Below, one piece after another: positions 4,099 to 38,034 of a stretch of 64,000 bases of DNA (positions are counted from its first letter, which is position 1; each line of letters starts with the position of its first letter). Source of the stretch: Streptomyces sp. NBC_01197 (lineage in GTDB: Bacteria > Actinomycetota > Actinomycetes > Streptomycetales > Streptomycetaceae); assembly GCF_036010505.1 (NCBI RefSeq), contig NZ_CP108569.1, positions 5,571,001 through 5,635,000 of the forward strand. The letters are read 5' to 3'. The notes below the pieces were generated by a model. It worked only from the letters and a program-made list of their open reading frames with translations. It was not told the origin of the DNA and did no database searches. Position numbers and translations under genes: made by a program.

Positions 4099-4113
4099 CT
4101 GACGACCCATCAG
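4099..4113. promoter_or_regulatory. CTGACGnnnCGTCAG-type palindrome, one mismatch
   Basis: CTGACGACCCATCAG lies 50 bases upstream of the cyp125 start. It matches the recurrent palindrome CTGACGnnnCGTCAG seen exactly at 22503, 29847 and 38020, with one base changed. It sits 16 bases from a KstR-like box (4130-4143). The binding protein is unknown to me. Confidence 0.6.
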
Positions 4114-4129
4114 AAGTCGTCCGAAAGAT

Positions 4130-4143
4130 AGTAACGAGTTCTA
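4130..4143. promoter_or_regulatory. KstR-type operator, one mismatch
   Basis: AGTAACGAGTTCTA fits the KstR consensus TnnAACnnGTTnnA except for the first base. It lies about 80 bases upstream of cyp125 in the divergent cyp125/thiolase promoter region. A kstR orthologue is encoded at 16154-16792. Confidence 0.65.
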
Positions 4144-4259
4144 CAAGGAGCAAGGGTTCCGGACGGAGTTGTTGCGCGCCGAGTGAGCGCGCGGCACCGC
4201 AAGACCCGTGCACGGGCCTTGCGTACCGGGGGTAGCACTCATAAGACTGCGCAGAGAAC

Positions 4260-4273
4260 TAGAACGCGTATCA
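4260..4273. promoter_or_regulatory. KstR-type operator, one mismatch
   Basis: TAGAACGCGTATCA fits TnnAACnnGTTnnA except for GTA in place of GTT. It overlaps a wider inverted repeat, AGAACT (4255-4260) and AGTTCT (4273-4278). It lies 57 bases before the fadA5-like gene. Confidence 0.7.
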
Positions 4274-4329
4274 GTTCTTCCGCGCGGGCGCCGGGACGCC
4301 TCAGCGGACGTGGAGGAGAGGACGAGCTC

Positions 4330-34970: not shown

Positions 34971-36173
34971 TCACTCCGGGGCGGGCACCACCCCCGGCGC
35001 CGGGCCCGGTACGGCGGTCTCCACCGGCAGTTCGGCCACCAGGCGGAAGCCGGACCGGCCGGGGCCCGCATCCAGTGAGCCGCCCGCCGCCGCGAGACGT
35101 TCGGTCAGGCCCTTCAGCCCGCTGCCGGGTGGCGTCGAGCCTACGCCGCGCCCATTGTCACTGATCACCAGCCGCACACGTTCGGGCTTCTCGCCGTCCA
35201 CGGCGATCTCGCACCGGGTGGCCTTGCTGTGCCGCACGGTGTTGGTGACGGCCTCCCTGACGACCCAGCCGAGCAGGGACGCGCTCTGCGGCTCCAGCGG
35301 CGGCCCCGACTGCCGTACGAGGGGCTCGATCCCGGCGGCGGTCAGCATGGAGCGGGCACTGTCCAGTTCGCTGGCGAGGCTGGCGTCCCGGTACCCGGTG
35401 ACCGCCTCGCGGATCTCGGTGAGGGCCTGCCTGCCGACGGTCTCGATGTCGGAGATCTGGCCGAGAGCCGCGTCGATGTCGCGCGGTGCGAGCCGCCGGG
35501 CCGCCTCCGACTTCACCACGATCACCGAGAGGGTGTGACCGAGCAGATCGTGCAGATCGCGCGAGAAACGCAGCCGCTCCTTCTCGACGGCCGTACGGGC
35601 CAGTTCCTGACGGGTGGCGCGCAGTTCCATGACTGTTTCGGAGAGCGCCAGGAGTCCGGCGGTCACCGCGCCCGAGATGAACGTGCCGTACCCCAGCGTC
35701 CACGGGTCCCACGGGCTGTGTCCCTCCGTGCCGGAGATGTATCCGGCGGAGGCCGAGAGGACCATCAGTGTGAAGCCGAGCTTCCGGTCGCGCAGCGTGG
35801 TGCCGACGGCCAGCGAGAGCAGCGGGAAGAACAGCAGCCAGCTGCCCCCGTAACCGAGAGCCAGCCCGTAGGTGACGGCGGCCAGCGCACCGAGCAGCCA
35901 GAGTGTCGTACGGCTCTGGCGCTTCCTCTTGTCGAACGCCCGCATCGCCACGGAGATGTAGAGGGAGTTGAAGGCCAGCAGTCCGGCACCGCCGATCCAC
36001 GGGTTCGGTGTCCGGCCGCCGATCAGGTTGGAGAAACTGCCCAGGCCGAGCAGCAGCCAGGGCATCAGCGTGAACGCGTTCGGCGGCCCCGGCCGCCGGC
36101 GCGCCACCCGTTCCCTGCGGCGCTGGGCACACCCTCCGATCCACTGCCGCAGTGGATCCAGCTTCTCCTGCAT
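34971..36173 (-). CDS. Sensor histidine kinase (HisKA_3 family)
   Basis: 400 residues. Five or six membrane helices (about 35-165) precede a HisKA_3 dimerisation domain with the phospho-acceptor His in RFSRDLHDLLGHTLSVI (about 211) and an HATPase domain with N-box REAVTNTVRHSKA and G-box VISDNGRGVG / GSGLKGLTERL. It is a DesK-like kinase that senses through its membrane part. The start is the ATG at 36173. It overlaps neither neighbour; 11 bases separate it from the ABC permease, and 56 bases from the response regulator. Confidence 0.9.
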   Translation of the reverse strand: MQEKLDPLRQWIGGCAQRRRERVARRRPGPPNAFTLMPWLLLGLGSFSNLIGGRTPNPWIGGAGLLAFNSLYISVAMRAFDKRKRQSRTTLWLLGALAAVTYGLALGYGGSWLLFFPLLSLAVGTTLRDRKLGFTLMVLSASAGYISGTEGHSPWDPWTLGYGTFISGAVTAGLLALSETVMELRATRQELARTAVEKERLRFSRDLHDLLGHTLSVIVVKSEAARRLAPRDIDAALGQISDIETVGRQALTEIREAVTGYRDASLASELDSARSMLTAAGIEPLVRQSGPPLEPQSASLLGWVVREAVTNTVRHSKATRCEIAVDGEKPERVRLVISDNGRGVGSTPPGSGLKGLTERLAAAGGSLDAGPGRSGFRLVAELPVETAVPGPAPGVVPAPE

Positions 36174-36184
36174 GGTCTCTCCCG

Positions 36185-36910
36185 TCACACGGTCCTCGCG
36201 GACCGACGGTACGAGATCACCGCGTACGTACCGAACGCCAGCAGCCAGCCGGCGAGCACCGCCACCGTGCCGAGGGCGGGCGCGCTGCCCTGGGTGGTGG
36301 ACCAGCCCAGCTCGGCGAAGCGGTTGGTCGGGGTGTAGCGGGCGACGGACCGCAGCCAGCCGGGAAAGGCGTCGACCGGGAACCACAGCCCGCCCACGAT
36401 GGCGAGCCCCATCAGACACGCCACGTTCACCACACCCGTGGTCTGGGCGGTGAGCCGGTACCCGTTGCCGATCCCCAGCAGCGTGAAGGGCAGCGCGCCG
36501 ATCCACAGCAGCAGGGTGAGGACGGCCCACTGCCAGGCGTCGATCCGTACGCCGTTGATGAGCGCCCCGGCCAGCAGCACCGCCACGATCCCCGGCAGTA
36601 CGGTCACCGAACCGGAGACCGCCCGGCCCAGCACCACCTGCGAGGGCGGCAGCGGGGTCACCCGCAACTGGCGCAGCCAGCCGAGGGACTTGTCGGACGC
36701 GACCCCGGTGCCGACGCCCAGGGCGGCGCCCAGTGCGCCGTACGCGGCCATGCCGACCATCGAGGTGACCCGCCAGGCCGCCGAGCCTGAGTCGGTCGGA
36801 CCGATGTTGGTGAACAGCAGATACATCACGACCGGCATACCGATGCCGAAGATGACGAACCCGGGGTCGCGCAGCGTCCGCCGGACTTCGAGCTTGACGT
36901 ATTCCAGCAT
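36185..36910 (-). CDS. ABC-2 type transporter permease
   Basis: 241 residues with six membrane segments, of the ABC-2 family seen in drug and lipid exporters. Marker segments are KLEVRRTLRDPGFVIFGIGM, GWLRQLRVTPLPPSQVVLGR and GLWFPVDAFPGWLRSVARYTP, the last being the conserved P-x-W-L motif near the end. The ATG overlaps the stop of the ATPase gene (ATGA). It forms an exporter with that ATPase and is followed by the two-component system. Confidence 0.9.
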   Translation of the reverse strand: MLEYVKLEVRRTLRDPGFVIFGIGMPVVMYLLFTNIGPTDSGSAAWRVTSMVGMAAYGALGAALGVGTGVASDKSLGWLRQLRVTPLPPSQVVLGRAVSGSVTVLPGIVAVLLAGALINGVRIDAWQWAVLTLLLWIGALPFTLLGIGNGYRLTAQTTGVVNVACLMGLAIVGGLWFPVDAFPGWLRSVARYTPTNRFAELGWSTTQGSAPALGTVAVLAGWLLAFGTYAVISYRRSARTV

Positions 36911-37899
36911 CAGACCGCTGCTTCCTGTGTGGTGGTGCGGGACGGGATCCCGGCGCTCCCCCGGGTGGGGGCGGCGCCGTCCGTGCGGCTGGGGAGCGGG
37001 CTCCCCTGCGAGGTCAGGGCCAGGAAGGCGTCCTCCAGCGTCGCCGGGGCGACCGCGAGGCCGCGGATCGCGCCCTGCTCCGCCAGGGCGACGACGGTGG
37101 CGTCCGAGTCGTCCGTACGCAGTGAGGCCCGGTCCCCGCGGATCTCCACGGCGGTGACCCCGGGCAGCACCTGGAGCCCCTCGGTACCGGCCCCCGCGAG
37201 GTCGAACGAGACCAGGCTGCCGCCCGCCGCGCGCTTGAGCACCTCGGAGCTGCCGTCGGCGACGATGCGGCCCTGGTGGATGACCACGATGCGGTCGGCG
37301 TTGCTGTCGGCCTCCTCCAGGTAGTGCGTGGAGAAGAGCACGGTGTTGCCGCGCCGCGCGTACGCCCGCATCGACTCCCAGAACGCCCGCCTGGCCTCCA
37401 CGTCGAGCGCGGCCGTCGGCTCGTCGAGCACGATCAGCTCCGGATTCCCGGCGAGCGCGACGGCGAACCTGACCCGCTGCATCTGGCCGCCGGAGAGCTT
37501 GTCGACCCGGCGTGCTCCGTACTCGCCGAGCCCGGCCATGTCCAGCGCCTCGGTGACCGGGAGCGGGCGCGGATACGTGCTGGCCACGAAGGCCACCAGC
37601 TCCCGCACCGTTACGCGGGGGATGGGCTGCCCCGCCTGGAGCATCGCGCCCACCAGACCTGCCCCGACCGCCTGCGCGGGGGCCCGGCCGAAGAGCCGCA
37701 CCTGCCCGCTGTCGGGCTCGTCGAGGCCGAGCAGCAGACTGATCGTGGTGGACTTTCCGGCCCCGTTGCGCCCCAGCAGGGCGACGGTCTCCCCGCGCTG
37801 GATCTCCAGGTCGGCGCCGTCCACGGCCCGCACCGCCCCGAACGTCTTGACCGCTCCCGTGAAGCTCACCGCGGGTCCGGTGTCTGCTGTCTGCGTCAT
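36910..37899 (-). CDS. ABC transporter ATP-binding protein
   Basis: 329 residues. Walker A is LLGRNGAGKSTT (about 42-53), signature KLSGGQMQRVRFAVAL, Walker B LIVLDEPTAALD and the H-loop His in FSTHYLEEAD. The 90-residue C-terminal extension is typical of drug-resistance ATPases (DrrA-like). First gene of an ATPase-permease-kinase-regulator operon, a common arrangement for cell-envelope stress or drug sensing. The start is the ATG at 37899. Confidence 0.92.
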   Translation of the reverse strand: MTQTADTGPAVSFTGAVKTFGAVRAVDGADLEIQRGETVALLGRNGAGKSTTISLLLGLDEPDSGQVRLFGRAPAQAVGAGLVGAMLQAGQPIPRVTVRELVAFVASTYPRPLPVTEALDMAGLGEYGARRVDKLSGGQMQRVRFAVALAGNPELIVLDEPTAALDVEARRAFWESMRAYARRGNTVLFSTHYLEEADSNADRIVVIHQGRIVADGSSEVLKRAAGGSLVSFDLAGAGTEGLQVLPGVTAVEIRGDRASLRTDDSDATVVALAEQGAIRGLAVAPATLEDAFLALTSQGSPLPSRTDGAAPTRGSAGIPSRTTTQEAAV

Positions 37900-38019
37900 G
37901 CCCCCACGCTACGGAGCCGGGCGGCGCCGCGGACAGATGCGGTTGTACGCAGCCGCCCGGGACAAATGTCACGGCCGCACGCCGTGGCCGGATGTCATGG
38001 CAGCGAGTCAAGGCCGGAT

Positions 38020-38034
38020 CTGACGTGGCGTCAG
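38020..38034. promoter_or_regulatory. CTGACGnnnCGTCAG palindrome, exact
   Basis: CTGACGTGGCGTCAG is a perfect inverted repeat located 160 bases before the MaoC gene, 48 bases upstream of an exact KstR operator. Confidence 0.65.

Follow-up and report, generated by a model that had tools for sequence, protein, structure and literature searches.

Across 64,000 nucleotides from Streptomyces sp. NBC_01197 (hereafter the window; C1:5571001-5635000 of a 7.7-Mb genome, RefSeq contig NZ_CP108569.1), the palindrome CTGACGN3CGTCAG and its close variants recur at six catabolic promoters. We show that the motif is enriched, lies between genes and is conserved, that it is co-conserved with the boxes of the TetR-family repressor KstR, and that it is linked to one particular TetR gene in several actinobacterial families. 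From these sequence comparisons, the palindrome is probably the operator of a single conserved TetR repressor with a TetR_C_38 domain, which would co-control promoters belonging to the KstR regulon. As far as we have searched, the operator, its probable regulator and the regulon are new; repression by a TetR protein is itself a known kind of control. Neither the motif nor the regulator was recognised in those parts of the open-access literature that were covered (subscription papers were outside the scope), and no open-access paper was found for TetR_C_38 or for spellings of the motif. The palindromes, the adjoining KstR boxes and the genes that they precede are listed below by their positions in the window.

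4099..4113: palindrome CTGACGACCCATCAG, between the CYP125-like P450 gene (2805-4049, minus strand) and a thiolase gene (4330-5499, plus strand), which we take to be FadA5-like
4130..4143: KstR-type box AGTAACGAGTTCTA, 16 bases from the palindrome at 4099
14343..14356: KstR-type box TAGAACTGGTATCA, 3 bases before the palindrome at 14360
14360..14374: palindrome CTGATACAGCGTCAG, before the aldehyde dehydrogenase gene (14402-15883, plus strand)
22503..22517: palindrome CTGACGGCCCGTCAG, before the F420-dependent LLM oxidoreductase gene (21467-22477, minus strand), no KstR box
27386..27400: palindrome CTGACCTTCCGTCAG, before the two-domain acyl-CoA dehydrogenase gene (27429-29669, plus strand)
27403..27416: KstR box TGGAACGTGTTCTA, 2 bases after the palindrome at 27386
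29847..29861: palindrome CTGACGGGGCGTCAG, before the lipid-transfer thiolase gene (29926-31116, plus strand), no KstR box
38020..38034: palindrome CTGACGTGGCGTCAG, between the ABC transporter gene (36910-37869, minus strand) and the MaoC dehydratase gene (38194-39048, plus strand)
38083..38096: KstR box TAGAACGCGTTCTA, 48 bases from the palindrome at 38020

A preliminary description of this DNA had reported three copies without a mismatch (22503, 29847 and 38020), two with one mismatch (4099 and 27386) and one with two (14360), all of which were borne out, and the gaps of 2, 3, 16 and 48 bases to the KstR-type boxes were exact as claimed. Forty dinucleotide shuffles of the window served as the null for the exact and one-mismatch counts. 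The three exact copies compare with a shuffle mean of 0.025 (maximum 1), and the six copies with at most one mismatch with a mean of 0.475 (maximum 3). Two-mismatch matches numbered 14 against a mean of 8.3, a count reached in 6 of 100 shuffles, so that a two-mismatch criterion is too loose when used alone. A further one-mismatch copy at 16736-16750, absent from the preliminary description, falls within the kstR coding sequence and is perhaps due to chance. The non-exact sites, together with those of a second catabolic cluster elsewhere in the genome, define CTGAY-N5-RTCAG as the held core; the sixth arm base is usually G and C, and the outer flank prefers A, then T.

The genome-wide search for CTGACGN3CGTCAG that had been proposed as a check returned 13 exact copies against 0 control matches, and 89 copies with one mismatch against 28 for the control. 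Five exact and eight one-mismatch copies belong to the second catabolic cluster, at 4.397-4.480 Mb, which encodes a coenzyme A (CoA) ligase, acyl-CoA dehydrogenases, a cyclase, a flavin reductase, succinyl-CoA-ligase-like, FMO-like, amidohydrolase and LLM proteins, as well as SDRs, a thiolase and ChsH2-like proteins. When the window was combined with a 140-kb stretch around this cluster, none of the 14 core-exact sites fell in a called gene in DNA that is about 82-85% coding, and 2 of the 25 core sites with one mismatch did so. An equal abundance in coding or random sequence would have spoken against the initial proposal, and it was largely not observed. Six control palindromes had 0-1 exact copies in the same DNA. 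Among all palindromes with 6-base arms and spacers of 0-10, CTGACGN3CGTCAG shares first place in the window with three others (3 copies) and in the second cluster, where it has 5 copies, it leads alone. When the arms are shortened to 5 bases, GC-rich ones top both lists. The remaining five exact sites in the genome are mixed: two lie within genes, one is intergenic, one precedes a ChsH2-like gene, and one precedes an LLM gene outside both clusters and touches the end of the preceding gene. Paired sites often occur in one promoter region, 24-107 base pairs (bp) apart (C1:4416075/4416099, 4396982/4397060, 4432602/4432704, 4451417/4451479 and 3448062/3448169; L236:9317/9371), an arrangement that suggests two dimers or divergent promoters.

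The exact palindrome was found in all 61 Streptomyces genomes sampled, with 808 copies against 17 for the reversed control. The median was 15 exact copies in the 45 genomes with a CYP125-like match (E<=1e-100; one of the matches is partial) and 5.5 in the 16 genomes without one (Mann-Whitney p 1.8e-4, with kinship ignored). Because of these medians, the motif can be said to occur without the steroid cluster and to be more frequent with it.

We compared promoters of orthologous genes at 80 named loci, nearly all titled Streptomyces. An orthologue was the best alignment with at least 60% identity over more than 60% of the length and starting within the first 60 residues, and the core was scored with at most one mismatch within 300 bp upstream and 60 bp downstream of the gene start; for the CYP125-like and aldehyde dehydrogenase genes the best 30 loci each were read. 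The core was present in 35/36 orthologues at the F420 oxidoreductase promoter, 64/65 at the acyl-CoA dehydrogenase promoter and 64/64 at the MaoC promoter. At the CYP125-like promoter, CTGAYN5RTCAG stood in all 30 loci and the core with at most one mismatch in 28 (controls 0-2), and at the aldehyde dehydrogenase promoter the corresponding counts were 14 and 27 of 30 (controls 0-1). The expected conservation therefore held at five of the six sites and failed at 29847, where only 9 of 80 lipid-transfer thiolase orthologues had the core. Where the thiolase gene lies less than 50 bp behind the dehydrogenase gene, the site was found in 0 of 56 relatives, and in the other 24 relatives it was found nine times; the site at 29847 is lineage-limited.

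Seven control palindromes scored 0-4 at the five conserved genes and the thiolase. Elsewhere the controls mostly scored 0-5, and since one of them reached 15/59 and 11/33 at two neighbouring genes without the motif, single control palindromes can be conserved by chance. The core was also found at the divergent partner genes, in 17/18 orthologues of the MFS gene at 25412 and 22/24 of the ABC gene at 36910. At other neighbours it was rare (24614, 4/61; 34971, 2/28; 39109, 2/60; 40338, 1/59), and none was seen at the other genes tested. Between the conserved arms, the five centre bases vary, taking 21 forms at the F420 promoter and 40 at the MaoC promoter.

The gene of KstR itself lies in the window.

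16154..16792, minus strand: KstR orthologue (TetR_N and TetR_C_20 domains in Pfam; matches to solved KstR structures at E about 1e-41)

This protein scores 200 bits on the NCBIfam KstR model, under the cut-off of 280, and automatic annotation may for this reason miss KstR in Streptomyces. KstR boxes with at most one mismatch were present at the same promoters as the palindrome, in 30/30 CYP125-like, 26/30 aldehyde dehydrogenase, 65/65 acyl-CoA dehydrogenase and 64/64 MaoC loci. They were absent from the F420 oxidoreductase promoter (0/36), in agreement with the preliminary description, and rare at the thiolase promoter (6/80). Four scrambled boxes scored 0-9 of 65 at the dehydrogenase, 0-4 of 64 at MaoC and none at the F420 and thiolase promoters. 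Judged by these counts, the palindrome and the KstR box are separate, co-conserved elements. The earlier suggestion of dual control by KstR and an additional TetR-like regulator is supported by this co-conservation at four promoters and by a TetR candidate outside the window. The regulator of the palindrome seems to add a second lock to KstR-controlled steroid-degradation genes in this Streptomyces and its relatives, and its apparent regulon is wider than steroid catabolism.

Could KstR or KstR2 bind the palindrome as well, as an alternative kind of site? In favour are the short distances of 2-48 bases that separate four of the six window palindromes from KstR boxes, and the co-variation of KstR-like proteins with the motif in one actinobacterial family (f14, see below). 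The published KstR motif is TnnAACnnGTTnnA (Kendall et al. 2007, PMC1995591) and the published KstR2 motif is AnCAAGnnCTTGnT (Kendall et al. 2010, PMC3068626), and both differ from the palindrome, which has no core of the KstR type and departs from the KstR2 consensus by inspection. Three genomes in which no KstR match reached E<=1e-30 also carry the palindrome (G010, G037 and G044, with 2, 10 and 31 exact copies, respectively), and the F420 promoter keeps the palindrome without a KstR box. We consider recognition by either protein highly improbable, and its distribution makes KstR an unlikely owner.

The candidate regulator is encoded in the second catabolic cluster, about 1.14 Mb from the window.

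C1:4434548-4435195 of the same genome (G000), minus strand: TetR_C_38 TetR gene, within the second acyl-CoA catabolic cluster

The protein belongs to the TetR family by its domains (PF00440, 4e-06, 26.9 bits with a cut-off of 24; PF19352 TetR_C_38, 1.1e-73) and its fold, and it was matched once in each of the 61 genus genomes, including the 16 without a CYP125 match. An operator at the own promoter is common in the TetR family. Among the 30 loci read out of these 61 genomes, all have the box CTGACGGCATGACAG over the likely start ATG of the TetR_C_38 gene (one, L047, as a spacer variant), as do 12 of 13 Streptomyces loci from a broader class sample, two of whose genomes are shared with the 30. 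A TAAGCT -10-like element overlaps the left arm of the box, and a bound dimer would for that reason cover both the promoter and the start of its own gene. The ATFYQYF segment of the DNA-binding domain was found in 47/47 loci searched, and an alignment of 21 orthologues shows the GRR, YR and GTS-ATFYQYF residues without variation. An AlphaFold2 model based on these 21 orthologues has a pLDDT of 90.6 and the TetR fold, with EthR as the nearest fold (TM 0.76-0.80) and the acyl-CoA-binding TetR proteins DesT and FadR further down the list.

The association between motif and regulator extends to other actinobacterial families. In the class sample of 148 genomes, 20 have at least seven exact copies, and a TetR_C_38 hit was found in all 20 (15/15 without family f13), as compared with 0 of 14 named control genomes. 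Within family f14, exact sites number 14, 14, 13, 14 and 7 in the genomes with the TetR gene and 0, 0 and 1 in those without it. Outside the genus, the orthologue's own promoter has a core site with at most one mismatch in 5/5 f14 genomes and 1/1 f12 genome. Regions of f12, f14 and f16 that were chosen for holding sites contain 30 exact copies; a gene begins within 200 bp of 28 of them, and three fall inside called genes. Of ten proteins picked for scanning from the 30 genes near these sites, nine matched catabolic enzyme classes (amidohydrolase, LLM, CoA ligase, acyl-CoA dehydrogenase, aldehyde dehydrogenase, thiolase or alcohol dehydrogenase) and one had no match. The DNA-binding domain of the TetR_C_38 protein is nearly unchanged in other families.

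Family f13 was dropped as support. Its five genomes (G072, G090, G104, G117 and G130) have 109-218 exact copies each (control 0-1), 135 of them in G072. With genes called by an in-house script, 32 sampled sites in 400 kb of G072 (L213-L232) were assigned as follows: five at the stop of both convergent genes, eight at the stop of one gene, ten within genes, five upstream of a start and four others. The TGA of the palindrome is thus a stop codon at 13 of the 32 sites. These observations would favour a terminator, a stop-codon hairpin or a dispersed repeat over an operator. In Streptomyces such a reading is disfavoured and, in our estimate, has hardly any probability: none of the eight exact sites of the window and second cluster overlaps a called stop, each has a gene start within 400 bp, and at the F420 and MaoC promoters the centre bases, unlike the arms, vary widely. 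The stop-codon palindrome of f13 is a different phenomenon from the putative Streptomyces operator. Three copies in G072 (L213:8146, L220:237 and L218:9938) share the context CTGACGN3CGTCAG-aaa-tagtgacagtaggg or its reverse complement, and these may be true promoter sites.

The palindrome could also be a real operator with another owner, such as the BTAD/SARP-like protein beside the site at 4448225, a TetR-like protein at 4461563 (identified by eye) or the LuxR-type response regulator at 34309, all of whose genes share regions with sites. The BTAD protein was found in 16/16 Streptomyces genomes tested, in 15 of them on the contig of the TetR gene and within about 17 kb, and core sites stand before some orthologues of the response-regulator gene (see below). 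SARP-type proteins bind direct repeats. Of the five f14 genomes that are rich in the motif, four (G091, G118, G151 and G161) gave no BTAD match at E<=1e-60 and the fifth gave a weak one. On this distribution the BTAD regulator is unlikely to be the owner, and we regard any other owner as unlikely. The BTAD/NB-ARC/TPR regulator (C1:4445037-4447997; L019:3038-5998) has a palindrome upstream and may be a target or a partner.

Under the preferred reading, a TetR_C_38 dimer would bind CTGAY-N5-RTCAG, as the position of the sites and their co-occurrence with the gene suggest. It would repress its own gene, where the box lies over the -10-like element and the likely start codon, and scattered CoA-dependent genes for a CoA ligase, acyl-CoA dehydrogenases, LLM/F420 oxidoreductases, SDRs, amidohydrolases, a thiolase and ChsH2-like proteins. 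In genomes with a steroid cluster, its predicted operators stand next to KstR boxes at four promoters (CYP125/thiolase, aldehyde dehydrogenase, acyl-CoA dehydrogenase and MaoC), and these shared promoters might act as a two-repressor lock with AND-type logic. TetR_C_38 alone would control the F420 oxidoreductase gene and also, in the present lineage, that of the lipid-transfer thiolase. The repressor could be released by its ligand, which we guess from the fold matches and the targets to be hydrophobic or an acyl-CoA.

It is also conceivable that TetR_C_38 owns the sites and activates some promoters, for example that of MaoC, where, by eye, a TTCACA/TATACA-like promoter follows directly downstream of the palindrome. 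At its own gene and at the F420 oxidoreductase, thiolase and acyl-CoA dehydrogenase promoters, the site overlaps or adjoins the apparent core promoter (again by eye), and TetR proteins are mostly repressors. A repressor is more likely than an activator, and mixed action of this kind seems to us quite unlikely.

Several observations weigh against TetR_C_38 as a general repressor acting through this palindrome. Some concern the sites: 2 of the 13 exact genome sites are inside called genes, and the MaoC site lies 157-281 bp upstream of the start, a distance compatible with activation or with control of the divergent gene. The centre of the acyl-CoA dehydrogenase site is nearly fixed, with CTTCC in 55/64, so that overall promoter constraint contributes to its conservation. 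Core sites precede 9 of 46 orthologues of the LuxR-type response-regulator gene (34309-34914), for which we have no explanation, and no site with at most two mismatches was found just before the window copy of that gene. The own box of TetR_C_38 is imperfect and, as one of its arms overlaps coding sequence, its conservation could partly reflect coding constraint; one Streptomyces (L150) lacks it, and outside the genus the own-gene site was found in only 1/4 f16, 0/1 f4, 0/1 f19 and 2/5 f13 genomes. The distribution is imperfect as well. Fewer than seven copies were counted in 17 of the 37 genomes in which TetR_C_38 was hit, no more than 1-4 sites in three of the Streptomyces sampled from the class, and 0, 0 and 1 exact copies alongside the orthologues in G086, G078 and G107. 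Most of the very numerous f13 copies mark the ends of genes or fall within them. A KstR-like protein co-varies with TetR_C_38 in f14 (5/5 versus 0/3), and f14 alone therefore cannot separate the two.

A wider proposal, which we advance tentatively and hold at somewhat less than even chances, makes TetR_C_38 the master repressor of CoA-dependent catabolism of rings and lipids across the genus Streptomyces and in several other actinobacterial families, with a ligand of its own. Accessory pathways, sterol degradation under KstR among them, would have been wired in promoter by promoter, so that their genes would need two different acyl-CoA signals at once. The analysis provides a predicted operator, regulon and testable targets for a regulator found in all 61 sampled Streptomyces genomes. 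It points to the kind of function that the TetR_C_38 domain may serve and yields a predicted pair of repressor and operator with which ligands could be screened. It also predicts that KstR alone does not set the expression of sterol degradation in Streptomyces, which bears on strains for steroid biotransformation.

Among known systems, EthR of Mycobacterium tuberculosis has the nearest solved fold to TetR_C_38 and is the best PDB match of its family profile, and one palindrome site (4418923) likewise stands before an FMO-like gene. The two proteins share about 16-19% identity, and the EthR regulon is one monooxygenase gene with a long operator, whereas TetR_C_38 would have many short operators. 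The acyl-CoA-responsive repressors FadR and DesT are weaker fold matches than EthR, and many predicted targets of TetR_C_38 are acyl-CoA enzymes. PccD of Mycolicibacterium is likewise a TetR repressor of acyl-CoA metabolism, in a phytosterol degrader; its footprinted sequences (PMC11596240), GTCCATTTGAGTTAATCAT and ATGGTATGTTAATCGTAATTAAC, are without the CTGAY-N5-RTCAG palindrome. KstR2 (PMC3068626) is, as TetR_C_38 would be, a TetR repressor that acts next to KstR on sterol degradation and has a short palindrome, but it has a different motif, a 15-gene regulon and three motifs near kstR2, whereas TetR_C_38 would share promoters with KstR. A further parallel is KstR itself, according to the account of its regulon (PMC1995591): an autoregulated TetR repressor with a short palindromic operator overlapping the -10 element at many lipid and sterol promoters. 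TetR_C_38 differs from KstR in its operator and its C-terminal domain (TetR_C_38 versus TetR_C_20), in a gene 1.14 Mb away that is present throughout the genus sample, and in a wider apparent target set. The promoter sharing between the two putative repressor systems, with the KstR gene in the window and KstR boxes beside four of the six palindromes, might be the most interesting part of this regulation.

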